Notes under the pieces: model-generated
Databases searched by the model: none
Seen by the model: the letters and a program-made list of their open reading frames with translations, nothing else
Told to the model about the DNA's origin: nothing
Part shown: positions 26,365-43,538 of the stretch, in pieces
Numbering within the stretch: the first letter of the stretch is position 1
How the letters are laid out: each line of letters begins with the position of its first letter
Position numbers and translations under genes: made by a program
Assembly (NCBI GenBank): GCA_008923315.1
Contig: WBSF01000008.1
Location: 248,001 to 312,000, forward strand
Origin: Betaproteobacteria bacterium SCN1
GTDB lineage: Bacteria > Pseudomonadota > Gammaproteobacteria > Burkholderiales > Thiobacillaceae
Direction of reading: 5' to 3'
DNA: 64,000 nucleotides

Positions 26365-26373
26365 GCCTCGGGA

Positions 26374-28152
26374 TCAGCGGCGCAGGCGCACCACCGTCCC
26401 CTCGCGCCGCCGATCGGCAGCACCGTCCTGCCCGCCGGTGGCGGGGTCGAGCGACACCGCCTGTACCGAACCGATGGTCTGCCCGCAGCCGTCCGTGCCG
26501 GCCTCGCCCAGCCCGGCGTGCCCCAGCCTGCGCAGCGCCTCCTGCGCGGCCAGGCCGAACCCCGGCTGCATGAAGGCCTGGCCGCCTTCGCAGCTCACCC
26601 GGCCGGCGGCGTGGGTGACCGACAGGCGCGGCGCGTCGATGGCCTGCTGCAGCGTCATGCCGTGGTCGACGAGATTGAGCGTGACGTTCAGCACCGAATT
26701 GATGATCGTCGCGCCGCCCGGCGAGCCGTAAGCGTAGACCGGCTTGCCGTCCCTGAAGAGCATCGTCGGCGCCATGCTCGAACGCGGGCGCTTGCCCGGC
26801 GCCACGTCGTTGGCGCCCGGGTTGCCGGCCGCCGCGTCGGCCGTGGGCGCGAAATTGAAATCGGTGAGCTCGTTGTTCAGCAGAAAACCGTAGCCCGGCA
26901 CCATGATGCCCGAGCCCCAGGTGTACTCGATGGTGCTGGTGTAGGTGACCACATTGCCCCAGCGGTCGACGACCGCGAAATGCGTGGTATGCGGGCTTTC
27001 GGCGCGGGCGCGCGTCGCGGGGGCAGGGCGCGCCGCCGGTTCCCACGGCGTCGGGTCGCCGGCCTGCGGCGTGTCCATGCGCCCATCGGATTGAATCAGC
27101 GCACTGCGCGCCGCCACATAGTCCGGATGCAGCAAGCCCGTGCGCGGCACCGGCGCGGCATCGTCGTCGCCGATCCACACCGCACGGTCCGCAAAGGCCA
27201 GGCGCATCGCCTCGATCATCGCGTGCAGCGTCTTGGCGCTGCCGAACCCGTAGCCCTGTGCCGCATCGCCGAGCGGAAACCGTTCCAGCAGGCCCAGCGT
27301 TTCCAGCATCGTCAGGCCACCGGAAGAGGGCGGCGGCATGGTCGCCAGCGTCCAGCCGCGATAGCGGCCCATCAGCGGCGTGCGGATCGCCACCTCGTAG
27401 CGCGCCAGATCGGCCGTCGTCATCCGCCCGCGGCCGGCCTCGCCCAGCTCGCTGCGCGCGCGCTGCTGCGCCTTCACGATGGCGCGCGCCAGCGGCCCCC
27501 GATAGAACGCGTTCGGGCCTTTGGCCGCAATCAGCTTCAATGTTTTGGCCAGGTCCGGCTGCACCAGCCAGCCGCCCTCGGCCAGCGGCACGCCGCCGGG
27601 CCGGAAGACCGCCGCGGTTTCCGGCTGCAGCGCCGTGCGGCCGTCGTCGTTTGCGATGTCTTCGGCCAGAAACCGGTTCACACGGAAACCGCGCCCGGCC
27701 AGCTCGATTGCCGGCGCCAGCGTCGCCGCCAGCGGCTGGGTGCCCCAACGCTTCAGCGCCGTATCCACCCCACGCAGCGTGCCCGGCACGCCCACCGCCA
27801 GCCCGCTGGTCGAAGCCAGCGCAAACGGCATCGGCAGGCCATCCGGCGCAAACTGATCGGCACGCGCCGCCGCCGGCGCGCGCTCGCGCGAATCCACGAT
27901 CACCGTCTCGCCCGTCTTCGCCAGATAAATCATCATGAACCCGCCGCCACCGATGCCCGAGGACTGCGGCTCCACCACGTTCAGTGCGAACTGCACCGCC
28001 GCCGCCGCATCCACCGCATTGCCCCCGGCCGCCAGCATGCGCGCGCCGGCAGCCGCCGCGGCCGGGTGTGAAACCGCAACCACCCCGCCGGGCGCGGCAG
28101 CGAGCACCGAAGAAGACAGCAGGCAAAGGGCGAGGAAAGCGCGGAAGAACAT
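26374..28152 (-). CDS. ggt: Gamma-glutamyltransferase
   Basis: This 592-residue periplasmic Ntn-hydrolase has an N-terminal signal peptide (MFFRAFLALCLLSSSVLAAA). The precursor autocleaves before the catalytic Thr (T389) in the motif SPHTTHFAVVD to give large and small subunits. The glutathione-binding Arg region VDSRERAPAAA, the GIMVPGYGFLLNNELTDF segment and PGG near SYGSPGGATIIN are all present. It hydrolyses glutathione or transfers its gamma-glutamyl group. The ATG at 28152 gives the signal peptide; a TTG 15 bp upstream is the alternative. Confidence 0.93.
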   Translation of the reverse strand: MFFRAFLALCLLSSSVLAAAPGGVVAVSHPAAAAAGARMLAAGGNAVDAAAAVQFALNVVEPQSSGIGGGGFMMIYLAKTGETVIVDSRERAPAAARADQFAPDGLPMPFALASTSGLAVGVPGTLRGVDTALKRWGTQPLAATLAPAIELAGRGFRVNRFLAEDIANDDGRTALQPETAAVFRPGGVPLAEGGWLVQPDLAKTLKLIAAKGPNAFYRGPLARAIVKAQQRARSELGEAGRGRMTTADLARYEVAIRTPLMGRYRGWTLATMPPPSSGGLTMLETLGLLERFPLGDAAQGYGFGSAKTLHAMIEAMRLAFADRAVWIGDDDAAPVPRTGLLHPDYVAARSALIQSDGRMDTPQAGDPTPWEPAARPAPATRARAESPHTTHFAVVDRWGNVVTYTSTIEYTWGSGIMVPGYGFLLNNELTDFNFAPTADAAAGNPGANDVAPGKRPRSSMAPTMLFRDGKPVYAYGSPGGATIINSVLNVTLNLVDHGMTLQQAIDAPRLSVTHAAGRVSCEGGQAFMQPGFGLAAQEALRRLGHAGLGEAGTDGCGQTIGSVQAVSLDPATGGQDGAADRRREGTVVRLRR

Positions 28153-28352
28153 GTCGGCAGAGACCAAGGCGGGAGAGCCTCAAGCCTGCCGTGGCAGGGT
28201 GCAGGCGTCAATCTTAGGATTTTGGATTTGAGGTCCGTTTATCGGCCGAAACTGAGTATCTTGTCGATAAAAACGGCTAGCCACCTAGAAAAACTCGATG
28301 GCCGCCTCGTAAACATAGTGATAGCTAGTGATTTTCGCAGCCGCCAGAAATG

Positions 28353-31300
28353 TCATTTCACCAACTCTATCAATTTCCCATAGCCGTTCACCACGTCGTA
28401 CTTCACTTGCGCTGAGGTGATTTTAGCGAAGAACTTTCGCGCGCATTCGATCTTGGCCTCTTCGATCTTTCGCAGTTCCATGGAGGACATGGAGCCTTTT
28501 GTTTCCGCAACAAAGAAGACGTGCTTCACCTTACCCGATTGAAATGCAATGGCCCAGTCGGGGTTGTAATTTCCAACAGGCGTCGGGATATGAAAACTCC
28601 TGGGCAGCTTGGCATACACGACGACTTCCGCACTGGCATCGAGTTCGCCGACAAACGTCCGCTCGTTGGTCGAATCAGTGAACACGTAGTCGTAAATGTG
28701 GCGAGTCGCCTTGAAGCCCTTGCTCAGGTCTTCCTTTTTCTCCTGGGTGAAAATATCGATGGTGTGGGTTTCATCAAGCGGGCTGTAAGCGAGGTGCTCA
28801 ACGACGACGGTCGCTTTCTGCTCATTGATGATTGTGCCGGCCTTCAGAAGAAAATCCTCGGGGTTCGTCCTGAATTGGCTGAAGACGGCGGCGTTGATGC
28901 CGCGCAGGATAGCGGCGATGGTTCGGCGGGTGAGTTGCGTCGACTCGGTGAGCTTGCCGATCACGTCGTACTTCACGACTGAACTGGCTGAAGTCACCAA
29001 GTAATCCGTTTGATTCTGCTTGGCGACGAAGGCCTCGCCACTCTTCATCTCCTCGTATTTCGCCTCGTCCTTCTGCTCGCCCCGGGTAACGGTGTATTGG
29101 AGCGGCGTGACGCGCAGTTCCTTGTCCAGGGCCTTGGTGCACTTGTCGATCAACTCGTCGGTCTTGAAATCCACCGCATAGATGGCTTTGCGGTTGATGC
29201 GGCGCCAAAGCTCCTGAAACTCCTTCTTCTCGAAGTTGGCGTTGAGCGGATTCACTTTTCCCTTACGGTCATCTTCGATGGCGGGAAGTTGGGCCATGCT
29301 GAACACGCTGTCGATGAGCTGGAAAACTTGCTCCTGGTAGGGAGCCAATTCGGGCGGCAAGTCCTTCAATGTGCCGTCCTTCTTCGCTTGGTGATATAGC
29401 TCGGCAATGTGGTCGTCGGCATCCGTGTAATCGTTCTTCACCAGATAGCGCTCGATCAGTTTGGCCATCTGCGGCGTCACCTTCACGTCGCCGGTCGGCG
29501 TCTTCAGCAGCTTGTCCCTGAAGTACTCCTCGTTGGCTTGGCGAGGCCGATTAGACAGCGAAGCGCTGATGTCCTTCTGCAAACCGGAAACGAAATCCCG
29601 GTAGCTCTCGTTGGCCACCACCGTCAGCACATTCACCTGGTGCACGGTGGCGGGGTCGTCCATGCGGTCTCCGCCCTGGGTCACGGCCAGACGCATACCC
29701 CGGCCGACCTCCTGCCGGCGCGACACCGTGTTGTCGCTGTGCTTGAGGGTGCAGATCACGAACACGTTGGGGTTGTCCCAGCCCTCGCGCAAAGCGGAAT
29801 GGGAAAACAGGAAACGCACCGGCTCCTCGAAACTCAGCAAGCGCGCCTTGTCCCGCAGGATCAGATCGTAGGCATCCACATCGTCCGCCTCGCCGGCCGA
29901 TTCGCCGCGGGCCTTCACGGCGGGATTCACCAGGCGTTTCGTCTTCTTATCGATGGAGAAATAGCCGTTATGCGTCCTGCCGGTCTCGATGCCCTTGAGG
30001 TAACGGTTGTAGGGTGTGTCCTCCAGGGTCAGCACCTCGTTGAGCTGGGCGTTGTATTCCTCCTCGAACATCAGGGCGTATTCGCCGGCCTGCTCTCCGG
30101 CCTCGTTGTAGCTGCGGTATTTCGCCACCTCGTCGATAAAGAACAGGGATAGCACCTTGATCCCCTGGTCAAAGAGCGTTTTCTCCTTCTCGAAGTGCGC
30201 CTTGATCGCCTCGCGTATCTGGATGCGGCGCAACGACACCTCGCTCACATCGCCAGCCGCCTCGCCGGCCGCAAGCACGACCCCGTTGGTGAAGCTGACC
30301 GTGTTGTCGATGGCATTGATGTCCGACACCACGAAGCCGTGGTACTGCGCCAGCCCATCCGATAGCTCATGAAGATTGTCGCCCTTGCGCAGCATGCGCA
30401 GCACCCGCTTGATGCCGTTCTTTTGCTGGATTTCCAGCTCGGCCCGCGCTTCGGGCGGCTTGGTCGTGGCGATCCGGATGGACTCCAGGTAGAGATAGGC
30501 ATTGATGCCGGCCAAGCCCCTCACCGTGATGCCGCGTACCGCGATCTTCTTCACCAGTTTTTGGTTGTAGGCGTCGATGGCATCGAGCCGATAAACCTTG
30601 TTGTGCTCGGTCTTGTGGGTGGCCGAATAGCGCAGGATCATCAGCGGCTCGAACTCCGCCAGCTTCTCAGTGGTAGCCTTGCCCTCCATCTTCTGCGGCT
30701 CGTCCAGGATCAGGATCGGGCGGTTCTTCTTGATGACGTCGATGGGTCGGCGCGACTGGAAATCGTCCAGCTCAAGATAGATGCGTCGGGCATCCTCGCC
30801 CCGGGCGGCGAAGGCCTGCTGGTTGATGATCATCACGTTGATGCCGGCATCGGAGGAAAAACTCTCCAGGTTGTGCAACTGCTTCGAGTTGTAAACGAAG
30901 TAGCGGACGCGCCTGCCGTATTGCTCCAGGAAGTGCTCCGCCATGATCTCGAAGGACTTCAGTACGCCTTCGCGGATGGCGATGCTGGGCACCACGACGA
31001 TGAACTTGCACCAGCCGTAGTCCCGGTTCAGCTCGAACATCGTTTTGATGTAGCAATAGGTCTTGCCCGTGCCGGTCTCCATCTCGACGTCCAGATTCAC
31101 GTCGCATACGGGGGTCTTCTTCAGCTCCGGCGAGACGGCGAGGTTCTGCCGCCGCTGCACCCCTTGCAGGTTCTCCAGCAACTGGGCGGGCGGCAGGGCA
31201 ATCCTGTCGTTGGCGAAGCCGTCACCCTCGAAGCCGGCCAGGGGCAGGGTGCTTTCCGATTCGACACGGCCCGGATCGATGGCGTACTTGAAGCCAAGGC

Positions 31301-31382
31301 TCTTGGGCTGGCCGGCGAAGCAATCCACCACCGCCCTGACGGCGTCGGTTTGATACGCCTGTTGCTTGAATTTGAGTTTCAT
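28353..31382 (-). CDS. res: Type III restriction-modification system restriction subunit (Res)
   Basis: This 1009-residue SF2 helicase-nuclease has Walker A ETGTGKT at 102-108, the type III-specific motif II DEPQ at 227-230, motif III YSATH, and motif [11 protein letters not shown]-terminal PD-(D/E)xK nuclease has D942 and E960-x-K962 (PDWAI, VAETKG). All catalytic residues are intact. With Mod it should cut unmodified DNA after ATP-driven communication between two head-to-head sites. It is the last gene of the defence operon, separated from fic by 53 bp, the only sizeable gap in the run. Confidence 0.93.
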
Positions 31383-31404
31383 CGTTGGTTCGGCCGCCTC
31401 TTAG

Positions 31405-31424
31405 TACCCCTACTATTACCCCTA
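31405..31424. repeat. Two TACCCCTA direct repeats between fic and res
   Basis: TACCCCTA occurs at 31405-31412 and 31417-31424, 12 bp apart, in the 53-bp fic-res gap. It is followed at 31431-31440 by the perfect palindrome GGTAATTACC, which contains the fic stop codon. They could bind a regulator or give res separate expression. Confidence 0.4.
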
Positions 31425-31435
31425 TGTGGAGGTAA

Positions 31436-32494
31436 TTACCCTTTCTTCTTCCACACCGCCGCAGGCCCCCGCCCCCGGCATACCAACAAGCCGGCCGCCT
31501 GCTGCTCGCGCAGAACGCGCCGAACCATATCCCGGCTCACACCGGGGCAAGACTGTTCCAAGGCGCTGATGGCGAAGCCCTTGCCGGGCACCGCGGTGAG
31601 GCGCTCGATGCTCGCCAGCACCAGCTCCCGCTTCGAGCCGCGCGGCGCTCCCGTTTGGCCAACCCGCTCCTCGAACTCCCGGTAGGCCGATTTGAGTATC
31701 GACAGCACATAGTTGATGAACGGCCAGGGGTCATGTTTGCCCTCGTGCCAGCCCTGGGAGCTTTGCTCCAGGGTCTCGTAGTAGCGCTCCTTGTTCTGCT
31801 CCACCAGCCGCTCCAGGCTGATGTAGCGGCCCACTTCGTAGCCCAGGTGATAGCTTTGCAGCAGCCACAGCAGCCGGGACACGCGCCCGTTGCCGTCGCG
31901 GAACGGGTGGATGCAGAGAAAGTCCAGATTGAACGCCGCCAGCAGCAGCAAGGGTGGCGCCCAGCGCTGATCCAGGCCGGCGTCCCAGTCGGACACCAGC
32001 GCCGCCATGTGGCGCGGGGTTTCCGCCTCCGGCACGGTCTTGAAGCGCACCCGCTCGCGGCCGTCGGCATAGCGCTCGATGATGTCGCCGTCTTTTTCCT
32101 TGTACTGCCCCGCATCCCATATCTGACCGCGAGTCAGCCCATGCAGTTGCTTGATGGTGGCTTCCGTCACCGCGATGTCGGCGGCCTGGGCATGAATCCA
32201 GGCCAGGGCGTCCCGATAGCCGCGCACCTCTTCCTCGTCGCGGTCGCGGAACAAGGGCTTGGGCGCGACCAGCAATTCGCGCACCCGCGAGACCTTGACG
32301 GCCACCCCCTCGATGCGGTTGGACGATACGGCGCTCTCGATCAGCGCGTGCTCGCGCAGCGCCTTCAAACGCTGCGGCGACTGCCGCGTGTAAAGCTCTT
32401 GCTTGCCGCGAAACTCGCCCAGGTCGGACAAATACCAGGCGGTGGTGGCTGGCACCTGCAATTGCCCGGAAGCGAACAGCCGTAGCGTATGCAT
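31436..32494 (-). CDS. Fic-family AMP-transferase with class II inhibitory motif and C-terminal winged helix
   Basis: This 352-residue protein contains the full Fic active-site motif HPFRDGNGRVSR at 196-207. His196 is the catalytic base, Asp200 binds metal and Arg204 and Arg207 bind phosphate. An N-terminal inhibitory motif SNRIEG (S58-E62-G63) is present, as in self-inhibited class II Fic proteins. A wHTH-like C-terminus (about 285-350) may bind DNA. It would AMPylate a protein target when inhibition is relieved. It lies 4 bp after mod and within the type III operon, so it may act as a guard or regulator of that system; this is inference. Confidence 0.9.
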   Translation of the reverse strand: MHTLRLFASGQLQVPATTAWYLSDLGEFRGKQELYTRQSPQRLKALREHALIESAVSSNRIEGVAVKVSRVRELLVAPKPLFRDRDEEEVRGYRDALAWIHAQAADIAVTEATIKQLHGLTRGQIWDAGQYKEKDGDIIERYADGRERVRFKTVPEAETPRHMAALVSDWDAGLDQRWAPPLLLLAAFNLDFLCIHPFRDGNGRVSRLLWLLQSYHLGYEVGRYISLERLVEQNKERYYETLEQSSQGWHEGKHDPWPFINYVLSILKSAYREFEERVGQTGAPRGSKRELVLASIERLTAVPGKGFAISALEQSCPGVSRDMVRRVLREQQAAGLLVCRGRGPAAVWKKKG

Positions 32495-32498
32495 GGGG

Positions 32499-34358
32499 TT
32501 AAAGGCTCTTCACTTCGGTTTCGGGGCTGAGCAGCTTGAAGATCTGCGCCACGTTGATCTTGGTGCTGTCGCTGTCGTAGCTGCTGTCGCGGAACACGGC
32601 CCGCAGCGGTTTGCGCTGGGCCAGTTCCTTCACCAGGTCTTCGGTGATGTGGGTGTCGAAGCAGGCCGCCAGGGCGTTGCCGTCCACGAAGAACACGGTC
32701 TTGCCGGCGATTTGCTGTTGCTCAATGGGCAGAGCCAGGTCCACGCCCCAATCCAGCAGCACCTGGAATAGCAAATCTTCGGGGGTGCGGTCTGGCTTGA
32801 TGTTGTCGGTGTGGAACGCCAGTTGATCCTGCTGCACTGCGTCGGGCGCGTAGTACACGTCATTCATGTTGGACGTGTCGATCTTGAGGACGCGGAAACC
32901 GATGTCGAGATCAGAAGCGCCTACGGCGCTCTCGGCTTTGATCTTCCTGCCGGCCCTTCGGAGTCGCTCTTTTCCGATGTCAGCGATAGTTTTGAAGTCT
33001 CGGTGTCCCGCCTCTGACTCATCGGCAATCTGAACCATGACATACCGACGACTGCCCTGATCAGCGGCATTCGCAGCAAGCACGGCATGACCGCAGGTGC
33101 CTGAGCCTGCGAAGAAATCCAACACGATGCCTTGCCCATTCGATGTTGCCTGAACAACTAGCTTCGTCAGCAAAGTCAGTGGCTTTGAAAATGGGAATAT
33201 TTTTTCGCCGAACAAATCTTGGATAACGCGAGTGCCTTCGGTCGTAAATCCCACATCATCGAACCAAGATGAAAGGCCTGTATCGAGAGTCCGAGCTTCC
33301 CGAAGGAACTTCTTATGTCTTGGGCGCCCATCAACCTTGTTAGGCCACAGGATTCTGTCCTCCGCGATTAGGCGATCCATTGTCTCTGGCGCACACATCC
33401 AACCGCGGGTTGGTGAAGGCGGATATCGTCTGCCCGTCTTTGGATTCACTACGTCGTAGTGCAGATTTGGACGTTCTCTCTCATTTGCGATTCCCGTGAG
33501 ATTGTCGCTAAACCATGGTCCACGAGGGTCGTTGTCGGGGTTTGAATATTTCTCTTGGTCGATGGGCATCCCTTTAAATGTCGCTTCGACCTTCTTATAA
33601 CAAACCACATACTCATGATCAGTTGATGCTTTGTCGTCATTACGGCTATCTGCCACTTGCCTGCGTCGCCACACGCACGTGATCAAGAACGAACCAACAC
33701 CGAATAGTTCATCACAGATTCGCCGAAGATTAGAAAACTCGTTCTCATCGATACTCACCATGAGTATTCCGTCTGATGCCAACAGATTCCATGCAATCTT
33801 TAGGCGAGGGTAAAGCATCGAAAGCCAATCTGAGTGAAACCTTCCGTTAGCACTGGTGTTGGCAATCATTCGATTGCCTTCATTGTCTACCTGATTAGAT
33901 CTAGTCATGTATGACTCAGCATCCTCAGAGAAATCGTCCTCATAGATGAAGTCATTTCCGGTGTTGTACGGCGGATCGATATAGATCAGCTTCACCTTCC
34001 CCAGATACGTCTCCTGCAACAGCTTCAACGCATCCAGGTTGTCGCCTTCGATGAACAGATTCTTCGTGGTATCGAAGTCCACGCTCTCCTCGCGGCAGGG
34101 CCGCAGGGTCTTGGCGATGGGCGCGTTGGCGGCCAGCAGGGCCTCGCGCTTGCCGGGCCAGTCCAGGTGGTAGCGCTCCCGGGGGCCTTCGACGATGTGG
34201 TCGGAGAGTTCCTGGCGCAGTTGGTCGAAGTCGATGGCCCGCTTGATTTTCCCGGTCTTCTCGTCGTTGGTCTCGGTGACACAGTTGGGGAACAGGGCGG
34301 CGAGCTTTTCGATGTTCTCGGCGGTAATGTCCGGTGTGTGCAGTTTGAGTTTTTCCAT
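32499..34358 (-). CDS. mod: Type III restriction-modification DNA methyltransferase (Mod)
   Basis: This 619-residue enzyme has motif order IV then I: DPPY at 128-131 (IYIDPPYNTGNDFIYEDDF) and FAGSG at 416-420 (LDFFAGSGTCGHAVL). This is the beta class typical of type III N6-adenine Mod subunits. The target-recognition domain lies between them. The N-terminal IEKLAALFPNCVTE and the C-terminal recognition-like part are standard. It methylates one strand of the site and directs Res. DNA coding for residues about 133-488 (roughly 32,890-33,960) is clearly AT-richer than either end, suggesting a recombined target-recognition segment. Confidence 0.93.
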   Translation of the reverse strand: MEKLKLHTPDITAENIEKLAALFPNCVTETNDEKTGKIKRAIDFDQLRQELSDHIVEGPRERYHLDWPGKREALLAANAPIAKTLRPCREESVDFDTTKNLFIEGDNLDALKLLQETYLGKVKLIYIDPPYNTGNDFIYEDDFSEDAESYMTRSNQVDNEGNRMIANTSANGRFHSDWLSMLYPRLKIAWNLLASDGILMVSIDENEFSNLRRICDELFGVGSFLITCVWRRRQVADSRNDDKASTDHEYVVCYKKVEATFKGMPIDQEKYSNPDNDPRGPWFSDNLTGIANERERPNLHYDVVNPKTGRRYPPSPTRGWMCAPETMDRLIAEDRILWPNKVDGRPRHKKFLREARTLDTGLSSWFDDVGFTTEGTRVIQDLFGEKIFPFSKPLTLLTKLVVQATSNGQGIVLDFFAGSGTCGHAVLAANAADQGSRRYVMVQIADESEAGHRDFKTIADIGKERLRRAGRKIKAESAVGASDLDIGFRVLKIDTSNMNDVYYAPDAVQQDQLAFHTDNIKPDRTPEDLLFQVLLDWGVDLALPIEQQQIAGKTVFFVDGNALAACFDTHITEDLVKELAQRKPLRAVFRDSSYDSDSTKINVAQIFKLLSPETEVKSL

Positions 34359-34367
34359 GGCGACTAT

Positions 34368-35024
34368 CTATGACTGTTGCAGCAAGGCCAGCTCGGCATT
34401 CAGCGTGCGCAATTGGGCATTCAGCTCCACCTTGCGGTTGAATTGTTTTTCCTGGGCCAGGCGGGTTTCCAGTTGCCGCCGGGCCCGCTGCTTCGCGGCC
34501 ATGGCATTGTACCGGGCCACCTGTTCGCCGAGGCTTTCGCCGGGGCGCGGCGCTAGGGGGATATGGCGGCGGACGATCTGCTCGTAGAGGCCGGCGAGAT
34601 CGAGGGCAACGGGCAGGGGCGGCCGCTCGGCCTCCAGCGGCTGGGGATAGGTTTGAAAGCTGGCTTCGATCACCCACTTCGACGCGTCCGCCTCGCTGGG
34701 GCGTTTGTAAGATGCGGCAAAACTGACTTGCCCTTCGTGGGTGAGCTGAAACACCAAGGGGAAGGGAATGGCCCGGTCGATGGCCTGGAGGATGGCCGGA
34801 TCGAGTTGCGGCGTTCTGAGGGCTATCTCGAATACCTGGATTTCGTTGATGCCTTTGCGCGGCGGCAGATTGACGGTTTCCGGTGCCAGCTTGTACTTCC
34901 AGAGTATTTCGCCGACCTGGGCGACAAAGAGTTCCTTGAGCCGTTTCAAGGGCCGGGCGTGGGCGTAGATCTTGGTCTTGGGCACCGGGCGATTGAACTC
35001 GGCCTGTTTCGGGTAGGCGAACAT
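34368..35024 (-). CDS. DUF4391 family protein
   Basis: This is a 218-residue protein of the DUF4391 family, whose members are often encoded beside type III mod and SNF2-like helicase genes. It starts FAYPKQAEFNRPVPKTKIYAHA, has a middle region EIQVFEIALRTPQLDPAILQAIDRAIPFPL, and ends with a charged helical segment likely to form a coiled coil (about 165-215). No catalytic motif is apparent. It sits 9 bp upstream of mod and 4 bp after the PIN gene. A structural or adaptor role in the defence complex is inferred from position only. Confidence 0.8.
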   Translation of the reverse strand: MFAYPKQAEFNRPVPKTKIYAHARPLKRLKELFVAQVGEILWKYKLAPETVNLPPRKGINEIQVFEIALRTPQLDPAILQAIDRAIPFPLVFQLTHEGQVSFAASYKRPSEADASKWVIEASFQTYPQPLEAERPPLPVALDLAGLYEQIVRRHIPLAPRPGESLGEQVARYNAMAAKQRARRQLETRLAQEKQFNRKVELNAQLRTLNAELALLQQS

Positions 35025-35028
35025 GGCG

Positions 35029-35439
35029 TCAGATCACCACGTAGGCGTCGGCGCCGCCGGGGATCTGTGCGGCCCGAATGTGGCGATCCAGGGTGACCAG
35101 CTTGCCCTGCCGATGCATGGCCAAGCTGAGCAAATAGTGGTCTGTCAGATGCTTGGACACTGGCAAGGCCGGTGCACTACGCAGGGAAAGGTCGTCTGGC
35201 CAGAAACGATGGCCCTCATAGGCGCAGAGCTGTTTCAGGATGGCACAGGCGGCATCGGTGTTGCCCGGTCCGTTCGGATAACTGGCATGGCTGATGATGC
35301 GGACAAAGCCATTCTCGGTGATCGGGCAGGTGGCCCAGCCACGCTGGTGGTTGGCGAGAAAGAACGATTCCGCCTTGCCGTGGTGCTCGTGGTCGGCATC
35401 GGCCAGGGCGATCAGGATGTTGATGTCGAGCAGGTACAT
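35029..35439 (-). CDS. PIN-domain ribonuclease (VapC-like), without a visible antitoxin
   Basis: This 136-residue PIN protein has the expected acidic quartet: D5 (YLLDINIL), E42 (PITENGF), D100 (HLTDHYLL) and D118 (VTLDRHI). VapC toxins cut tRNA or rRNA with these residues. The usual small VapB-like antitoxin gene is not present: the upstream neighbour is the helicase (8-bp gap) and the downstream one DUF4391 (4-bp gap). It may be restrained by one of the operon's other proteins or act as a dedicated effector. Confidence 0.87.
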   Translation of the reverse strand: MYLLDINILIALADADHEHHGKAESFFLANHQRGWATCPITENGFVRIISHASYPNGPGNTDAACAILKQLCAYEGHRFWPDDLSLRSAPALPVSKHLTDHYLLSLAMHRQGKLVTLDRHIRAAQIPGGADAYVVI

Positions 35440-35447
35440 ACGCGCTG

Positions 35448-38400
35448 CTAGATGCCTTCGCGTTCCATGATTTCGTAGATGAGCTGGCTGGTCACCTTGA
35501 CGCCGCGCTTCTTGAGCATGGTTTCGATGACATGGTGCGTGGTGCCGCCATCCGTCGACGAGGGGTCGTAGAACACAATGAAGGCGATCAGTTCGAAGTC
35601 GTCGAGTCCGTGGATGGTATTGGTCAGGGCGGTGGTTTTGCCACCCGAGAACAGGCTGTCGATGTCTTTCTCTTCCTTCAACTCGATCATGGAGTGGATG
35701 GCCTTGCCCAGCAGCTCGGAATAGGCATCCATGCGGCGGCCGTCTTTGGTGACTTTGTTGAAGGCCTGGTACACCTCGGGGATGGGCTCGTGCCGTTCCT
35801 TGCAGGCGGCGCGGGCGAGGTCGAGCAGACGCTTGGCTTCGGTGTGGTTGGCCACCACGGTACCGTCCTGGGCCACGTAAACCAGGTAATAGGGGTGCAG
35901 GCGGTTCTGCCGATTGATGTTGACGCTGTCGTTGCGGTTGCGCAGGGCGAAAATGACGCCGGGCACCAGGCCGCGCTCTGGGGCGGCAGGAACGACGGCG
36001 TGCATGCCGTTGGGCAGGCTGGCCAAGTCGCCATGGGTTTTGACGTAGTTCAGCAAATCCATGCGGAAATCGTTCAGGCCGAGATCGGTGATGGAGATGC
36101 CGGTCTTGAGGTCTTCCAGCTCGATGACTTCGTCCTGTAACCGCCGTAGCTGCTCGCGGCGGTAGGCGACGTCGTTGGCGCGGGCATCGAGTGGGTTGTC
36201 GTCGCCGCTGGCGGTGACGTCGGCGATGATCATACGGTTTTCGACCCGCTCCTTGAGGTTGATGTATTCGTCTAGCGTGATGTCCGGCCAGTAGTTCACC
36301 AACTGGATGTAGCGGTTCTGGGAGCCGATGCGGTCGATGCGGCCGAAGCGCTGGATGATGCGGACCGGGTTCCAGTGGATGTCGTAGTTGATGAGGGTGT
36401 CGCAGTCCTGGAGGTTCTGGCCCTCGGAAATGCAGTCGGTGGCGATGAGCAGATCGATCTCGCCCGTTTCCCTGGGCAGGATGGCCGCCTTCTCCTTGGA
36501 ACGCGGTGAAAAGAGCGTGAGCAGCGACTGGAAGTCGTAGGCCTTCTTCAGTGTGCTCTTCGGGCTGTCGGCGCCGGTGACTTTGCCGGTGTGCAGATGC
36601 TGCTGCGCCAGGAAGAAGGGCGCCAGGTGTTCGTAGAGGTAATCCGCGGTATCGGCAAATGCGGTGAAGATGAGCACCTTTTTGTTGCCCGGATTGATGG
36701 GCGATGCCAGCTTGCTGAGGATGGTGGTCTTGAGATGCTGGAGCTTGGCGTCATCGGATGGTGTGACCTTGCGCATCTCCGCCAGCAAATCATCGATGAC
36801 GGCGAGGTCGGCGCGCAACTCCTGTTCCCAACGCGGCAGATCCATGTCGGCGAGATTGATCTGGACCTTGTTGCCGATCTGTTCGTCATCGGGGCTTGGA
36901 AAGTCGGTTTCGTCATCCGGCTCCGTGTCGGCAAAGGCGGGGGAGACATCGGCAAAGGTCGCATCGCGCCCCGTTTTCTGGAAGTCGGCGATCTTTGCCA
37001 GAGTCTGAAGGTGAGTGTTGGCCAAGCTCTGCAAAGTCAGGCGGAAGGAGTGCACCGAACTTTCCAGCCGCTTGAGCAGGTTTACGGTCATTAAGGCCTG
37101 GATGCCCTTCTCGCGGCCCGTCTGCTTGAGGTTGCCGTGCCCCTGGTTCGCCTCGGGATCGAAACGCTGCTCGTATTGAAACAAGCGGCTGGGCTGCACG
37201 TAGCTCAATGGCGCATACACGGCGAGCGCGAGCGTGCTCAGGCGCTCGAATATCTCGTTGAAGCCGATCACATCTTTGCGGTGCGTAAGCGGGCAGTGAT
37301 AGGGCACAGGTTTGAGGCGTTCCGGAAACGTGCCGATATCCTTGGTGTCGTAGTAGGTCTGGATATGGCGGCGTGAGCGGGCGATGGTGACGCTGTCGAG
37401 CAGTTCGAAGAAATCGAAGTCCAGGGTGTCGAGAATTGCCGCGGCGGTGCGCTCCTGCGGGGGTAGGGCGCTCCATGTGGTGAAAGCCGCCTGGGCACGG
37501 CGAAAAATCTCGTCAATGTGTTTTTCGGACTTGAGCTTGGAACCGAGTATTTCCGGATTGCCTTCGTAGGCAAGCGCAAGCTGGTTCTTGAGGTCGGCGA
37601 ATCGGTTGTTCACCGGCGTGGCGGACAGCATGAGCACCTTGGTCTTTACTCCCTGCCGGATGACTTGATTCAACAGGCGCTGATAGCGGGTCTCGCGGTC
37701 GCGATAGAGGTCGTTGTTGCGAAAGTTATGGGACTCATCGATCACCACCAGATCGTAATTGCCCCAATTCACGCGGTTCAGCGCCAACCCAAACGAATAC
37801 CCGCTTTCGCGCAGAAGATCCGTATGGCAAAGCACGTCGTAACCGAAGCGGTCCTTGGCGAAAATGTTAGTGACGAGGTTGCCTTTGTAGGTAAGCCAGT
37901 TGTCAGCCAGCTTCTTTGGGCAGAGGACGAGCACCGAGCGATTTCGCAACTCGTAGTATTTGACTACAGCCAGCGCGGTGAAGGTTTTTCCGAGGCCGAC
38001 GCTGTCGGCGAGGATGCAGCCGTTGTAGGTTTCGAGCTTGTTGATGATGCCGTTGGCGGCGTCGCGCTGGAAATTGAAAAGCTTCTTCCAGACCAGACTG
38101 TCCTGATAGCCGGTGCGGTCGTTGGGCAGGACATCGGTGGTGATGTCTTCCAGGAATTCGCTGAAAATGTTGTAGAGCATCAGGAAATAGATGCGCTCGG
38201 GTGAATTCTCCTGATAGACGGATGCAATGTGCTCGCAGAGCTTCGCGGTTACATCTTCGAGTTTTGCCGGGTCTTTCCAAATCTCGTCGAAGAGCGAAAG
38301 GTAGCGACCCGTCGTCGGCTGCTCGTCCACCCGATTGACGAAGTTCGAAACGGCGTCGCCTTTTTCGTAACCAAGGTCGACTGCCGTGAACCCGTGCAAA

Positions 38401-38831
38401 GGAAGGTAAACGGAATCTTTGTCTTCCGTGCTGACAGCGGCAAACTGCTGCATCGGGGCGCGGCTGCGATTCGAACGGAAGATCGCCTTCTGCCGCATCC
38501 ATTCGGCACATTCCTTCGCGATTGCGCGTTGGGTGAGTTCGTTGCGGAGACGGACTTCAAATTCACTGCCATAGAGGCTGCGCTCGCGTTCGAGCTTGGG
38601 GATGTGGAACTCGCGATGTTCCTTTTTGAGACGGTCGGTAACGTCGTCGGGAACGAAGGTCGGTGACGTGAAAATAAACTGGAGGGAATCGATCTTCTCC
38701 AACTCCGCTTTCAGCGCTTCGAAAGCGTAGATCGAAAAGCACGAAGCTGCGATCCTCAGCTTGGAGCCGGGTCGAATGATCTGCTTCAGGTCATCGCCGA
38801 GGAGACGATTGATGTTGTCGAGTATTTCCAT
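35448..38831 (-). CDS. SNF2-like helicase with PLD-like N-terminus, first gene of the defence operon
   Basis: This 1127-residue protein has an N-terminal region of about 150 residues resembling the PLD-like domain of helicase-related defence proteins. The SF2 ATPase follows, with Walker A DSVGLGKT at 276-283, DESH at 365-368 (VVIDESHNF) and SATPVNN. A helicase C-terminal lobe has LLIATDCISEGQNLQ and IIQRFGRIDRIGS. A long extra C-terminal part (about 850-1127) has no motif I recognise. It probably tracks or remodels DNA. Five downstream genes follow within 10 bp or so of each other except res, so it appears to be part of an extended type III system. Confidence 0.9.
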   Translation of the reverse strand: MEILDNINRLLGDDLKQIIRPGSKLRIAASCFSIYAFEALKAELEKIDSLQFIFTSPTFVPDDVTDRLKKEHREFHIPKLERERSLYGSEFEVRLRNELTQRAIAKECAEWMRQKAIFRSNRSRAPMQQFAAVSTEDKDSVYLPLHGFTAVDLGYEKGDAVSNFVNRVDEQPTTGRYLSLFDEIWKDPAKLEDVTAKLCEHIASVYQENSPERIYFLMLYNIFSEFLEDITTDVLPNDRTGYQDSLVWKKLFNFQRDAANGIINKLETYNGCILADSVGLGKTFTALAVVKYYELRNRSVLVLCPKKLADNWLTYKGNLVTNIFAKDRFGYDVLCHTDLLRESGYSFGLALNRVNWGNYDLVVIDESHNFRNNDLYRDRETRYQRLLNQVIRQGVKTKVLMLSATPVNNRFADLKNQLALAYEGNPEILGSKLKSEKHIDEIFRRAQAAFTTWSALPPQERTAAAILDTLDFDFFELLDSVTIARSRRHIQTYYDTKDIGTFPERLKPVPYHCPLTHRKDVIGFNEIFERLSTLALAVYAPLSYVQPSRLFQYEQRFDPEANQGHGNLKQTGREKGIQALMTVNLLKRLESSVHSFRLTLQSLANTHLQTLAKIADFQKTGRDATFADVSPAFADTEPDDETDFPSPDDEQIGNKVQINLADMDLPRWEQELRADLAVIDDLLAEMRKVTPSDDAKLQHLKTTILSKLASPINPGNKKVLIFTAFADTADYLYEHLAPFFLAQQHLHTGKVTGADSPKSTLKKAYDFQSLLTLFSPRSKEKAAILPRETGEIDLLIATDCISEGQNLQDCDTLINYDIHWNPVRIIQRFGRIDRIGSQNRYIQLVNYWPDITLDEYINLKERVENRMIIADVTASGDDNPLDARANDVAYRREQLRRLQDEVIELEDLKTGISITDLGLNDFRMDLLNYVKTHGDLASLPNGMHAVVPAAPERGLVPGVIFALRNRNDSVNINRQNRLHPYYLVYVAQDGTVVANHTEAKRLLDLARAACKERHEPIPEVYQAFNKVTKDGRRMDAYSELLGKAIHSMIELKEEKDIDSLFSGGKTTALTNTIHGLDDFELIAFIVFYDPSSTDGGTTHHVIETMLKKRGVKVTSQLIYEIMEREGI

Positions 38832-39194
38832 CGGCCAATTAATTGTTCTGCGGAGTTTCTATCGTTGATATCGAGCCATTATGCACATGAGGCTATAGTC
38901 CCAACCTCAGCCTGAGCTTGCTCCTTGTTGTAATGCTGATTCGATTGGATTGTATCGGATGCCATGAAACCCGTACGAAAATAGGCTTAGCGCAGCATTC
39001 ATCACTTAATCGCTATTGCCGCACTAATGCCAACTGATACGTAAAATTAGACTTGAAGATATAGACAAGAGCGCTGTCAGATTGCAGCTCTCTGAGCGCA
39101 ATGTTGTGATAGCCAAGCGACACGGGAAGTTAACTTCGGCCAAATAAAATTCCAACCCTACCCATTTCAAATCAAAATTACGGCCATCTACCTA
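38832..39194. other. AT-richer intergenic region between the defence operon and hypE
   Basis: This 363-bp stretch holds no gene and is visibly AT-richer than its surroundings. It must contain the defence-operon promoter: on the minus strand CATAAT (38883-38878), 47 bp before the helicase ATG, is a fair -10, with TTGGGA 15 bp upstream as a weak -35. No terminator was seen after hypE. The composition is typical of an island junction. Confidence 0.45.
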
Positions 39195-40199
39195 TCAACA
39201 AATCCGCGGCAGCGGATCGTCCTCCAGTTCGTCGATCACGCGCCGGCCGCCCAGCCCGGTTTCCAGGATCACGCGCCCGCCGCCGGTTTCGATGCGGCCG
39301 ATGAGGGCGGCATCGCCGCCTTCGGGCAGGGCGCGCCAGCGGCTCAACACTGCCTCGGCCGCAGACGGGGCGACGGCGGCGACGATGCGGCCTTCGCAGG
39401 CCAGAAAGTAGGGGTCGTAACCGAGCATGTCGCAGACGGCGACGACTTCCGGGCGCAGCGGCACGGCGTGCTGTTCGAGCAGGACGCTGTGGCCGCTGGC
39501 GCGTGCGATTTCGTGGGCGACGGTGGCGAGCCCGCCGCGCGTGGGGTCGCGCATGAACCTGAGTTCCGGCAGGTCGCGCACGGCGCGCGCCAGCGGCAGC
39601 ACCGAGGCGGAATCCGAACGCAGGCTGCCGGACAGGCCGAACTGTTCGCGTGCGAGCATGACGGCGATGCCGTGGTCGCCGACGCTGCCGGAGACGATGA
39701 CCGCGTCGCCCGGCACGATGCGGTTCATGCCCAGCGGCGCGGCGGCGCGCCGCACGCCGACGCCGGTGACCGAGAGATACAGGCCGCCGCCTTCGCCGCG
39801 CCGCACCACCTTGGTGTCGCCGGCGACCACGGTCATGCGGTTTTGCCGCGCGGCGCGCGCGAAGCTGGCGATGTAGCGGTCCAGCTTTGCGATTTCCAGG
39901 CCTTCTTCGATCAGCGCGGAAAGCGTGCAGTAGACGGGGTCGGCGCCGGCCACGGCCAGGTCGTTGACGACGCCGTGCACGGCGAGCGAGCCGATGTCGC
40001 CGCCGGGAAATTCGAGCGGCTCGACGGTGAAGCCGTCGGTGGTGACCAGCAGTTCGCCATCCGGCTGCGGCAGGGCGACCGCGTCGGCGTCGGTGTCGAG
40101 CAGCGGGTTGCCGAGGTGGCGCACGAAGATGCCGGCGATGAGTTCGCGCATGAGGCGGCCGCCGTTGCCGTGGGCGAGAAGGATGCGGGTGTCGTCCAT
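39195..40199 (-). CDS. hypE: Hydrogenase maturation factor HypE
   Basis: This 334-residue member of the AIR-synthase-like family ends in the diagnostic PRIC; the terminal Cys carries the carbamoyl group that HypE dehydrates to thiocyanate, the source of the Fe-CN ligands. The N-terminal LLAHGNGGRLMRELI and the ATP-binding region VVAGDTKVVRRGEGGGLYL and MRDPTRGGLATVAHE are typical. The ATG at 40199 gives the standard N-terminus. It is the last gene of hypCABDFE, 2 bp after hypF. Confidence 0.96.
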   Translation of the reverse strand: MDDTRILLAHGNGGRLMRELIAGIFVRHLGNPLLDTDADAVALPQPDGELLVTTDGFTVEPLEFPGGDIGSLAVHGVVNDLAVAGADPVYCTLSALIEEGLEIAKLDRYIASFARAARQNRMTVVAGDTKVVRRGEGGGLYLSVTGVGVRRAAAPLGMNRIVPGDAVIVSGSVGDHGIAVMLAREQFGLSGSLRSDSASVLPLARAVRDLPELRFMRDPTRGGLATVAHEIARASGHSVLLEQHAVPLRPEVVAVCDMLGYDPYFLACEGRIVAAVAPSAAEAVLSRWRALPEGGDAALIGRIETGGGRVILETGLGGRRVIDELEDDPLPRIC

Positions 40200-40201
40200 G
40201 C

Positions 40202-42433
40202 TTATGTTTGTGCGTACAGGTATTCGATGACCTGCCCGAAGCTTAACCCGGCGTCGTTGACCGGGATGCGCTGTGGCAGGCAGGCGACGAAGCCGGCCGC
40301 CTCCAGCCGCGCGCACACGGTTTCGGCCAGCAGGCGGTTCTGGAACACGCCGCCGGTGAGGCCGACGTGGCGGATGCCGGTTTCTTCGCACAGGCGTGCG
40401 GCTTGATCGACGAGCGCCTGCGCCAGGCTGAGATGAAAATCCGCCGCGCGCGCAGCCGGCGTGCGGCCCGCGTCGTTCAGCACCGGCAGCAGCGGCGACC
40501 AGTCGCTGCGCCATACACCAAGCGCATCGCGGGCCAGCGGCAGGGGCACGGCACGGCCTTCGGCCGTGGCGGCTTCCGCTTCGAGCCGCATCGGCGCCTC
40601 GCCTTCGAAGCTGGCCTGGGTGCAGATGCCGCACAGCGCGGCGGCGGCGTCGAACAGCCGCCCGACCGAGGTCGTGACCGGGCTGTTGAGATGGTGCGTC
40701 CAGGCCTGATGCAGGGGCGCGGGCGCAAAGGGGGCGGGCAGGCCCGCTTCCCACAGCAGGGCGGCGGCGGCGCGCCAGGGCTCGCGCCCGGCCTTGTCGC
40801 CGCCAGGCAGGCGAAAGGGCTTGAACGACGCCGCATGCCGCCAGCGGCCGGGCAGGCCGGCGAAGGCTTCGCCGCCCCACAGGCTGACATCCGCACCCAA
40901 CCCGACGCCGTCCCAGGCGAACACGATCCAGTTCGATACGGCCGGGTATTCCCAGGCCAGCGCCGCGGCATGCGCGTGGTGATGCCAGACCCCGGACACG
41001 GGCAGGCCGCTGTCGCGCACAAAACGGCGGTAGCCGTAGCCGGGATGGCGGTCGATCACGAGGCGCTTCGCCTCGACCTGGTACAGCCGCTGCAGGTCTG
41101 CCGCGACCTGCGCCAGGGTGTCGAGGCTGCGCGGGCTGTCGAGTTCACCGATGTGCGGCGAGACGACGGCGCGCCTGTCCCAGGCAAGGCACACGGTGTT
41201 CTTCATGTGGCTGCCGAGCGCGAGCACGGGTTCGGCAAGCGGCGCGGGCAGGTCCAGTTCCAGCGGCGCATTGCCGCGCCCGAGCCGCAGCGGGCGCGGC
41301 ACGCCGGCAATCGTGCGGTACACCGGGTCGTCGGCCGGACGCACGATGGGGCGGTCGTGATGCAGAAAGGCATCGGCCAGATGCGCAAGCCGGGTTTCGG
41401 CTTCGGCATTGTCGGTCAGCACCGGTTCGCCGGACAGGTTGGCCGACGTCGCCACCAGCGGGCCGCCGAAGTCGGCGAGCAGCAACGCGTGCAGCGGCGA
41501 GTAGGGCAGCAGGCAGCCGATTTCGGCAAGGCCGGGGGCGAGGTTTTCCGCGAGCGTGGCGTCCGCCTGTTTCGGCAGCAGCACGATGGGGCGTTCGGGC
41601 GACTGCAGGCGGGCCATCGATGCCGGCGTTGCGTGCACGCAGGCCTGCACGGCGTCGGGATCGGGAAACATCACGGCCAGCGGCTTGGCCGGGCGCGGCT
41701 TGCGCGCGCGCAGGGCGGCGACCGCCGCTGCGTTGCGCGCGTCGCACAGCAGGTGGTAGCCGCCCACGCCTTTGGCCGCGACGATTTTGCCGGCGCGCAG
41801 GGCGGCGATGGTGGCGGCCAGCGCGGTTTCGTCGCCGGCGAGCGATGCGTCCGCCGCCACGAAACGCAGATGCGGCCCGCACACCGGGCAGGCGATGGGC
41901 TCGGCATGAAAGCGGCGGTCGAGCGGGTTGTCGTATTCGGCCTGGCAGTCGGGGCACAGCGCGAAATCGCGCAGGGCGGTGTTGGGCCGGTCGTAGGGCA
42001 GGGCGCGGATCAGCGTGTAGCGCGGGCCGCACTGCGTGCAGTTGATGAAGGGATAGCGATGGCGGCGGTTGGCCGGGTCGTGCAGTTCGGCCAGGCAGTC
42101 GGCGCAGACGAAGCCGTCCGGCGGCAGGTGGGCATCGGCCTGCTGCGTCGCCACGCTGTCGCGGATGACGAATCCGCTGGCCGCTTCGGGCGCGCAGTCC
42201 GACACGGTAAGCGGGCCGGGCACGGCCAGCGGCGGCGCCTCGTCGAACAGGGCCGCCTCGAATTGCCGCAATTGTTCGGGTTCGCCTTCGGCGTGGATTT
42301 CCACCCGGCCGTCGGCATTGCGCACCCAGCCGGCGATGGCGTGCGCGTGCGCAAGCCGGTGGACGAAGGGCCGGAAGCCCACGCCCTGCACCCGCCCGCC
42401 GACCGTGATGAACTGCGCGATCCGTTCAGGCAT
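40202..42433 (-). CDS. hypF: Carbamoyltransferase HypF
   Basis: This 743-residue protein makes the carbamoyl group transferred to HypE. Domains in order are an acylphosphatase-like part (about 8-95, GGRVQGVGFRPFVHRLA), two zinc fingers (about 105-190, pairs CADC/CTQC and CPDC/CPVC), a YrdC-like domain (about 200-385) and a Kae1-like domain (about 400-740, VWHHHAHAAALAWE, VGLTGGVFQN). All landmark residues are present. The ATG at 42433 overlaps the hypD stop by 8 bp. Confidence 0.96.
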   Translation of the reverse strand: MPERIAQFITVGGRVQGVGFRPFVHRLAHAHAIAGWVRNADGRVEIHAEGEPEQLRQFEAALFDEAPPLAVPGPLTVSDCAPEAASGFVIRDSVATQQADAHLPPDGFVCADCLAELHDPANRRHRYPFINCTQCGPRYTLIRALPYDRPNTALRDFALCPDCQAEYDNPLDRRFHAEPIACPVCGPHLRFVAADASLAGDETALAATIAALRAGKIVAAKGVGGYHLLCDARNAAAVAALRARKPRPAKPLAVMFPDPDAVQACVHATPASMARLQSPERPIVLLPKQADATLAENLAPGLAEIGCLLPYSPLHALLLADFGGPLVATSANLSGEPVLTDNAEAETRLAHLADAFLHHDRPIVRPADDPVYRTIAGVPRPLRLGRGNAPLELDLPAPLAEPVLALGSHMKNTVCLAWDRRAVVSPHIGELDSPRSLDTLAQVAADLQRLYQVEAKRLVIDRHPGYGYRRFVRDSGLPVSGVWHHHAHAAALAWEYPAVSNWIVFAWDGVGLGADVSLWGGEAFAGLPGRWRHAASFKPFRLPGGDKAGREPWRAAAALLWEAGLPAPFAPAPLHQAWTHHLNSPVTTSVGRLFDAAAALCGICTQASFEGEAPMRLEAEAATAEGRAVPLPLARDALGVWRSDWSPLLPVLNDAGRTPAARAADFHLSLAQALVDQAARLCEETGIRHVGLTGGVFQNRLLAETVCARLEAAGFVACLPQRIPVNDAGLSFGQVIEYLYAQT

Positions 42434-43538
42434 CGGCCGCAACGCGCACGCCGCCGGCCCACCAGATGCGGCAGGCGCCTTCGTCCGACACCATGCAGGG
42501 GCCGACCGGGGTGCGCGGCGTGCAGGCGCGGCCGTAGATGCGGCACTGGTTGGGATAGATTTTTCCGAGGACCACCTGTGCGCAGTCGCAGCCGGGCGGC
42601 ATGTCGCCGGCCCGGCGGCGCGCGGGATCGGCGTGGTCGGGAAACCGCACGCGCGCATCGTGACGCGCCAGCGCCGGTTTCAGGGCATAGCCGGACTGCG
42701 GGATGACGCCGATGCCGCGCCAGTTGGCGTCGACGACGTCGAGCGTTTCGCGCAGGAAGCGCTGCGCCGTGGCATTGCCCTCGGGATGCGCGACCTCGCG
42801 GTAGCAGTTGTCCAGAAAACGCTCGCCGGTCTTCAACTGGCGCAGCACGGAATAGAAGGCCGCCAGCAGCGATTCGGTCGAAAAGCCGGCGACGGCGGCA
42901 GGGATCTCGTGGCGGTCGACGACGAAGCGCCATTCCTCGGGTCCCATCACCGCCGAGACGTGGCCGGGCGCGACCAGCGCGTCGAAGCCGGGTTTGCCCG
43001 GGCTGGATTCAAAACTGCCGAGCAGCATCGCCACCGCCGGCCAGGTCAGCCGGCCCGACAGCAGGATGGACAGATTGTCGGGAATGCCCTCGGCGAGCAT
43101 CGCCGCCACGGGCGCCGTGGTGGTCTCGAAACCGGCGGCGAAGAAGACGACCGCGCGCCCGGGGTTCGCCTGCGCGATGTGCCGCGCATCGAGCGGGCTG
43201 GCGACCGGCCGCACGTCGGCGCCGGCGGCCTGCGCCTCGGCCAGCGAACGCACTTCGCCCTTCTTCACGTTGACCGGCACGCGCAGCATGTCGCCGAAGG
43301 CAACGAGGATGACCTGATCCTGCAACGCGAGCTGGATCGCCTGGTAGACGTCCTCCTCCGGGCACACGCAGACCGGGCAGCCGGGGCCGGGCACCAGTTC
43401 GATCCATGCAGGCAACGCGCCGCGCAGGCCGGCGTGGGTGATCGAGCGCTCGTGTCCGCCGCACACGTTCATGATCTTGACCGTGCGGCCGAATTCGAGG
43501 GCGCGGAGTTTCTCCAGCCAGTGGTGCGCGTCGTCCAT
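42426..43538 (-). CDS. hypD: Hydrogenase maturation factor HypD
   Basis: This 370-residue iron-sulfur scaffold, with HypC, assembles the Fe(CN)2CO group of [NiFe]-hydrogenase. Conserved cysteine motifs are IMNVCGGHE, PGPGCPVCVCPEED, FSTESLLAAFYSVL-adjacent residues, and the C-terminal [4Fe4S] set PPGCDCAQVVLGKIYPNQC with CTPRTPVGPCMVS. Its start overlaps the hypB stop by 1 bp, showing tight coupling. Confidence 0.96.
   Translation of the reverse strand: MDDAHHWLEKLRALEFGRTVKIMNVCGGHERSITHAGLRGALPAWIELVPGPGCPVCVCPEEDVYQAIQLALQDQVILVAFGDMLRVPVNVKKGEVRSLAEAQAAGADVRPVASPLDARHIAQANPGRAVVFFAAGFETTTAPVAAMLAEGIPDNLSILLSGRLTWPAVAMLLGSFESSPGKPGFDALVAPGHVSAVMGPEEWRFVVDRHEIPAAVAGFSTESLLAAFYSVLRQLKTGERFLDNCYREVAHPEGNATAQRFLRETLDVVDANWRGIGVIPQSGYALKPALARHDARVRFPDHADPARRRAGDMPPGCDCAQVVLGKIYPNQCRIYGRACTPRTPVGPCMVSDEGACRIWWAGGVRVAADA

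Follow-up and report, generated by a model that had tools for sequence, protein, structure and literature searches.

A type III restriction–modification operon with exchangeable cargo genes and a VapB-like tail on its helicase

What, if anything, silences a VapC-type RNase that is encoded within a restriction operon and has no antitoxin gene adjoining it? The question is posed by a locus of Betaproteobacteria bacterium SCN1 (Thiobacillaceae), lying in a window of 64,000 nt (the whole stretch of DNA analysed: contig WBSF01000008.1, positions 248,001-312,000, assembly GCA_008923315.1). At 28353-38831 of the window, on the minus strand, six intact open reading frames (ORFs) follow one another with gaps of 8, 4, 9, 4 and 53 nt, in the order SNF2 helicase, VapC-type PIN, DUF4391, Type III Mod, Fic and Type III Res. 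As judged from sequence, this is rather likely to be a horizontally acquired four-gene Type III restriction–modification (R–M) operon with exchangeable PIN and Fic genes, in which a tail on the helicase replaces the antitoxin of the PIN and holds the RNase. Relative loci fetched for comparison are numbered L and genomes searched are numbered G. The features referred to are as follows.

35448-38831, minus strand: SNF2-family helicase, 1127 aa, first core gene (Pfam, PADLOC, motifs, aligned relatives)
35451-35561, minus strand: C-terminal tail of the helicase, residues 1091-1127, putative VapB-like toxin-binding end, best matched at about 1109-1127 (alignment, profile, dN/dS, tree)
35029-35439, minus strand: VapC-type PIN RNase, 136 aa, cargo, no adjoining antitoxin gene (Pfam PIN, TIGR00028, catalytic acids)
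34368-35024, minus strand: DUF4391 protein, 218 aa, second core gene (Pfam, predicted structure)
32499-34358, minus strand: Type III Mod, beta-class N6/N4 methyltransferase, 619 aa, third core gene (Pfam, PADLOC, motifs)
31436-32494, minus strand: Fic protein, 352 aa, cargo of the Mod–Res slot (Pfam, PADLOC, motifs)
28353-31382, minus strand: Type III Res, SF2 ATPase and PD-(D/E)XK nuclease, 1009 aa, fourth core gene (Pfam, PADLOC, motifs)

The helicase tail and the PIN behind it

An alignment of 94 helicases shows a C-terminal tail of 40 residues beyond residue 1087 that is common to those of the window, L030 and L032. The tail is directly followed by a PIN in all three, a combination found in 0 of the 91 others aligned. 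Two further helicases extend past residue 1087 (L037 by 59 residues, L111 by 27), with unrelated sequence and no PIN match; the others have at most 17 residues past this point, and L044 and L054 end early, the gene being split. A preliminary description of the locus did not mention the tail.

The window PIN passes the NCBIfam model of the VapC family, TIGR00028, with 92.8 bits against a cut-off of 73.6, and it has the four acids expected of a VapC, D5, E42, D100 and D118, which are invariant in five aligned sequences. It lacks the separate small upstream VapB gene with a DNA-binding domain that defines a VapBC pair: the helicase stop codon is 8 nt from the PIN start, which leaves no room for an antitoxin ORF. 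The toxin-binding C-terminal end of a VapB appears to be present on the helicase, as a resemblance in sequence. Within its own genome the PIN matches only itself at E<=1e-10, and compared by sequence with the PDB it has no match at E<=1. Related PINs at other loci are VapC toxins preceded by an antitoxin gene, which in L193 is annotated as CopG family. In 36 of 40 such relatives a single ORF of 70-125 aa ends at the PIN start; the four dropped had two ORFs (L206), no alignment (L208), another spacing (L213) or no ORF (L215). Several of the 36 ORFs end in a tail-like manner, and 8 of 18 ungapped positions are identical between the window tail and the ORF beside L210.

The resemblance was examined with a profile made from the 36 VapB C-termini, with no helicase included, which was run against the C-terminal 60 residues of 3549 ORFs of at least 100 aa, comprising the six window proteins and ORFs listed mechanically from the 104 loci described below. 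The tailed helicases of L032 (19.2 bits, E 1.8e-4), L030 (13.1 bits, E 0.015) and the window (11.7 bits, E 0.041) take the first three ranks, followed at rank 4 by a match of 8.9 bits (E 0.3). The mean local score against the 36 VapB ends is 27.5 for the window tail, 28.4 for L030 and 26.3 for L032, as against 16.3, 16.4 and 16.9 for the same tails shuffled (z of 10.7, 11.6 and 7.9; 0 of 1000 shuffles in each case) and at most 17.5 for 83 control helicase C-termini. PINs nearer to that of the window tend to have VapB ends nearer to the tail (Spearman 0.40, p 0.015, n=36); the control, another helicase stretch compared with VapB N-termini, gave 0.25 (p 0.13). The VapB ends of the five closest PINs score 38-55 against the window tail. 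Against Pfam the window tail alone gives weak matches only (E 0.07 or worse), and in plasmids it has no match. A comparison of the helicase by fold was given up, the predicted model being too poor (mean pLDDT 60).

The tail seems to be maintained by selection. In three pairs its dN/dS is 0.064, 0.069 and 0.104, compared with 0.051, 0.079 and 0.067 for the helicase body and 0.084 and 0.054 for the PIN, the third PIN pair being saturated. These rough values indicate purifying selection on the tail, with a constraint about equal to that on the body. In a tree of 90 helicases from which the tail was excluded, the window and L030 form a group (support 0.93) whose sisters, L031 and L038, are both without tail or PIN, and L032 is sister to L033, L036 and L040, again all without either. 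Because the sister groups have neither, tail and PIN appear to have changed together at least twice, via gain, loss or cassette exchange.

Searches for further loci with tail and PIN returned none. This holds for PIN searches of 229 genomes of the class and 288 genomes of the phylum of G615; 40 locus-holding genomes gave the own copies of L030 and L032 only, and 76 and 79 relatives of two host genomes gave the same two copies and four others with no further tail. The PIN search of viral_contigs gave nothing. ORFs upstream of PIN matches revealed no further helicase tail (L208 yielded no alignment, and upstream of the PIN in L215, L232 and L233 no ORF was seen), nor did a search for the helicase in 90 relatives of the host add a tailed one among the loci compared.

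A four-gene core and its cargo

The six same-strand ORFs, with gaps of 4-53 nt, are as the preliminary description had them, and its family names agree with Pfam, NCBIfam and PADLOC. SNF2-rel_dom, Helicase_C, PIN, DUF4391, N6_N4_Mtase, Fic, ResIII and RE_endonuc all exceed the curated Pfam cut-offs, and PADLOC assigns Res to REase_III (1079 bits) and Mod to MTase_III (738 bits). Its statement that the active sites are intact likewise holds for the catalytic motifs of helicase, Res, Mod and Fic and for the PIN acids. The helicase has GLGKT, DESH, SAT and QRFGR. Res has GTGKT, SAT, GRGMR and PD..AETKG, that is, the SF2 ATPase motifs and the C-terminal PD-(D/E)XK nuclease of a Type III Res; in Mod, DPPY at 128 precedes the AdoMet-binding FAGSGT at 416, the order of the Type III beta class. 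Fic has HPFRDGNGR at 196 and SNRIEG at residue 58. The latter fits (S/T)xxxE(G/N), the N-terminal inhibitory motif of class II Fic proteins; together with HxFx(D/E)GNGR it would place the window Fic in that class. The top PADLOC model for the helicase is HKD+Snf2. An HKD-type pattern, in the one form tried, was not found in it, and because of this a PLD-like domain, if present, looks non-catalytic.

To what extent the six genes form a unit was followed in 104 loci from a DUF4391 profile search: the best 80 of 332 genome loci, all 21 viral-contig loci and three of 41 plasmid matches. Helicase, DUF4391, Mod and Res stand in this order on a single strand in 88 of them. Among the 16 remaining, 13 have helicase and DUF4391 with no Res match (a Mod stretch is present in 11), and 12 of these 13 loci end at most 350 nt from the last core match; L130 is without helicase, and L128 and L129 hold a DUF4391 fragment only. 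The order is kept on an archaeal plasmid (Methanomethylovorans), on an E. coli plasmid and on the chromosome of E. coli CFT073, near tRNA-Leu. The 36 helicase relatives aligned are 52-87% identical to that of the window.

The association is also seen in 398 genomes of the host phylum. DUF4391 occurs in 23, the helicase (E<1e-200) in 21, a 22nd match in G353 at 2.7e-49 being excluded, and both in 20; in the three genomes with DUF4391 and no helicase match (G018, G022, G257) DUF4391 lies <400 nt from a contig end, on the helicase side. Res at >=1200 bits occurs in 13 of these genomes, 11 of them with a DUF4391 match, and weaker Res relatives are found in genomes without the helicase. Three genomes are exceptions to the core: G071 (L185), with a helicase of 725 bits, 42% identical to that of the window, and no DUF4391 match, and G080 and G104, with Res >1390 bits and again no DUF4391 match.

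The fixed unit is therefore helicase, DUF4391, Mod and Res, with PIN and Fic exchangeable. The preliminary description had treated all six genes as one unit. For helicase and DUF4391 this stands, since they are fixed with Mod–Res in 88 of the 104 loci; for PIN and Fic it does not. A conserved six-gene unit has to be rejected: a PIN lies behind the helicase in two of the 104 loci (L030, L032), besides the window, Fic relatives occur elsewhere, and the slots hold other genes. The same description had named conservation of mod–res alone as one outcome that would overturn it, and this was half borne out: PIN and Fic vary, but helicase and DUF4391 are constant. What is thereby defined is a Type III system of four genes, found in bacteria and on an archaeal plasmid, which includes the unstudied DUF4391.

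In the confidently predicted structure of DUF4391 (mean pLDDT 93) a mixed alpha/beta domain precedes two long helices. A fold search gave no match at E<=0.001 in PDB or BFVD; the best hits, E 0.062 and 0.079 respectively, are not credible, and a function by fold was rejected. Its sequence has no match in the PDB, and a profile search gave weak matches only (E 0.94 or worse). Two groups of DUF4391 proteins can be told apart, sharing 43-53% and 22-27% identity with that of the window (alignment rows e.g. L017 and L003), the latter accompanied by helicases about 42-46% identical to the window's. In the literature searched the name DUF4391 occurs in a single paper, as a table row (PMC7784981).

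The slots of the core were counted as occupied where a gap of at least 250 nt contains an ORF of at least 75 aa, leaving the window itself, L081 and L128-L130 out and setting the helicase–DUF4391 gap of L030 by hand, since the start assigned to DUF4391 there lies too far upstream. Cargo fills 5 of 100 helicase–DUF4391 gaps, 32 of 98 DUF4391–Mod gaps and 39 of 88 Mod–Res gaps; 56 of 88 complete loci have some, 14 of them in at least two gaps, and by this rule 32 of 88 have none. Of 103 cargo ORFs, 96 are on the core strand, and a nearly identical set of 103 forms 48 clusters. Thirty were run against Pfam and 10 against PADLOC. The largest cluster (13 ORFs, one tested) is Schlafen AlbA_2. Others are an OLD-like nuclease with DUF2130, UvrD-like helicase, SIR2 with HerA, Fic, YhcG-type nuclease, RhuM, Bro-N, weak PLD, 23S rRNA IVP, PDDEXK_3, DUF2779 and AAA with subtilase; some ORFs had no match. 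Toxin pairs are a PIN behind a small ORF (L043, L048), a weak Xre antitoxin with RES (L032) and a nucleotidyltransferase with a weak HepT-like partner (L082). In L053 a relative of the window Fic (331 bits) lies immediately 5' of the helicase, and weak relatives (42-49 bits) occupy slots of L036, L046, L051 and L065. Both established and candidate defence genes collect in the slots, which may be a source of new ones.

In the DUF4391–Mod slot of L050 and L088, SIR2 and HerA, which are PADLOC families in L050, accompany a third gene of the OLD/DUF2130 cluster. The Mod–Res slot of L113, L115 and L120-L122 holds a family of 223-225 aa, present, among the loci read, in viral-contig ones only; the one member tested had no Pfam or PADLOC match. 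Directly 5' of the helicase, a WYL or other helix-turn-helix regulator is annotated in L131 (12604-13509), L027 (3776-4681) and L132 (2062-2967), and a MAD1-like regulator gene in L133 (3839-4003). The annotation of L132 (9717-12910; E. coli 0H24) shows the methyltransferase gene of the operon as two fragments separated by an IS30 element.

The operon has a G+C content of 58.4%, against 66.9% in the stretch to its left and 68.0% to its right. Its helicase occurs (E<=1e-100) in three of 53 congeners searched, 74% identical in one and 44-45% in two, and the closest helicases (86-87%) are those of L030, a metagenome-assembled genome of an unclassified bacterium, and of L031 and L038, in records named Spartobacteria and Chthoniobacteraceae. 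The deviating G+C, the rarity among congeners and the records in which the closest helicases occur fit horizontal acquisition, which is probable. In a comparison with three congeners for an empty site, the neighbour on one side was elsewhere or was without the other neighbour within 1.5 kb, and none of the repeats found in 27900-39400 brackets the operon. The flanks, with ORFs named by eye, carry hydrogenase-maturation-like genes (39195-44344) and gamma-glutamyltransferase-like and cation-antiporter-like genes (22373-28167).

A proposed mechanism and its rivals

In general, the C-terminal end of a VapB inhibits its VapC, and VapC-type PIN proteins are toxic; it is on this knowledge of VapBC that the tail is supposed to inhibit, and not recruit, the PIN and that the PIN is supposed to be a toxin. 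Mod would mark the host DNA and Mod–Res would cut DNA left unmarked, with helicase and DUF4391 presumably acting as fixed partners. The VapB-like tail on the helicase would stand in for the usual antitoxin gene, docking on the PIN and silencing the RNase while intact helicase is plentiful. Should a phage or gene loss remove, degrade or remodel the helicase, the PIN RNase would be freed and growth would stop. The helicase would then be the antitoxin of the PIN, and its loss or remodelling would open a second line of defence like that of PrrC, discussed below. We infer from sequence that the tail binds the PIN, that the free PIN is toxic, that such a trigger exists and that the operon protects against phage. 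If the PIN is toxic when free, a cell that carries it must keep the helicase, and the shared operon would secure this. Fic is probably a second, self-inhibited effector.

Of the sequence evidence here, the tail alone links the RNase to the restriction core. It is conceivable, if distinctly tentative, that the restriction helicase, a DNA translocase, is a sensor-antitoxin, so that the VapC would be released, via the tail, according to the state of the helicase on invading DNA or on its loss to a phage anti-restriction protein. Were this true, the slots of the operon would be sockets that wire different toxins to one restriction core. A rival explanation, of rather low probability, is that the tail is the remnant of a vapBC pair inserted behind the helicase with vapB fused to it, which still neutralises the PIN and acts as an addiction module retaining the operon, with no tie to restriction. 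Such pairs are cargo at other loci (L043, L048, L032, L082), and the helicase–DUF4391 slot does accept other genes (5 of 100). The VapB end alone was kept, however, and the DNA-binding part is gone, so neutralisation would depend on the level of helicase; and the tail is under much the same constraint as the helicase body. That PIN and Fic merely ride along in a defence island and are functionally unconnected with Mod–Res is improbable: cargo varies among loci and is absent from 32 of 88 complete ones, but it lies inside the operon, mostly on the core strand (96 of 103 ORFs), and through the tail the PIN is joined to one of the core proteins. More improbable still is an accessory nuclease acting with the helicase on phage nucleic acid, recruited and not inhibited by the tail. 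Intact PIN acids, purifying selection on the PIN gene and the lack of an adjoining antitoxin gene would suit it, but the tail resembles VapB C-termini, which are usually inhibitory.

Several points weigh against the reading in which the tail replaces the antitoxin. Tail and PIN are known from three loci only, and the window tail taken singly is a weak match (E 0.041). The next-closest PINs after the five mentioned (L217, L216, L194) have VapB ends that score 19-20, no better than shuffles. Synonymous sites are near saturation (tail dS 1.15-2.05), which makes the dN/dS values rough. An unlinked, distant antitoxin could be encoded elsewhere in the genome. Lastly, the helicase and Mod–Res need not form a stable complex, if the helicase of Eco86II is of the same family, since the extra helicase was not seen in the partly purified Eco86II enzyme (PMC8259958).

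The preliminary description had also proposed a layered defence, DNA cleavage being backed by RNA cleavage or AMPylation. This is plausible, and the idea is an earlier one: for R–M operons with RNase and Doc/Fic-type toxins a defence at three levels, DNA, RNA and protein, has been proposed (PMC3710099).

Comparison with known systems

Neither the four-gene core nor an antitoxin end on a restriction helicase was found in the literature, as judged by titles and the starts of abstracts, from which their absence is not established. Extra helicases and toxins in R–M operons are already known (PMC8259958, PMC3710099). Eco86II and BspHIV are Type III R–M systems with an extra helicase, and a helicase-like ATPase gene lies 5' of mod, near mod–res, in >500 genomes (Murray et al. 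2021, PMC8259958). By gene layout the window operon is like group 3 of that study, its helicase gene being 5' of mod and by mod–res, with DUF4391 between; it differs from what the available part describes in having DUF4391, cargo genes and an antitoxin-like tail. The helicase is distantly similar to DrmD of DISARM. Membership of DISARM was rejected, as the DrmD score is 143.5 bits against a cut-off of 610; DrmA is a weak PADLOC match of the helicase itself only, and DrmB and DrmC are not among the PADLOC matches listed for the six proteins (for Mod the best 25 of 30, for the helicase the best 25 of 44).

With VapBC (TIGR00028) the locus shares a PIN above the family cut-off and a tail that resembles VapB C-termini. 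Unlike VapBC, it has no VapB gene by the PIN and no DNA-binding part, the tail being at the end of a helicase of about 1090 residues.

The closest parallel in logic is PrrC, an RNase toxin that accompanies the Type Ic system PrrI and is silenced by R–M subunits (Anantharaman et al. 2013, PMC3710099; available text). For R–M operons with HEPN, Doc and RhuM genes silencing by R–M subunits has likewise been proposed there, and, to judge from the same text, it has been worked out in few cases, PrrC being one. As with PrrC, an RNase toxin would here lie inside an R–M operon and be freed by removal or remodelling of its guard. The window operon departs from the PrrC and HEPN operons, as described in that text, in being Type III with an SNF2 helicase and DUF4391 and in having a PIN and not a HEPN, and from PrrC in that control would be exerted through a transplanted antitoxin tail on the helicase. 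In the present operon a silencing contact is suggested by sequence, in the form of a short tail on a core protein whose gain and loss accompany those of the toxin gene, and the idea of a guard becomes testable.

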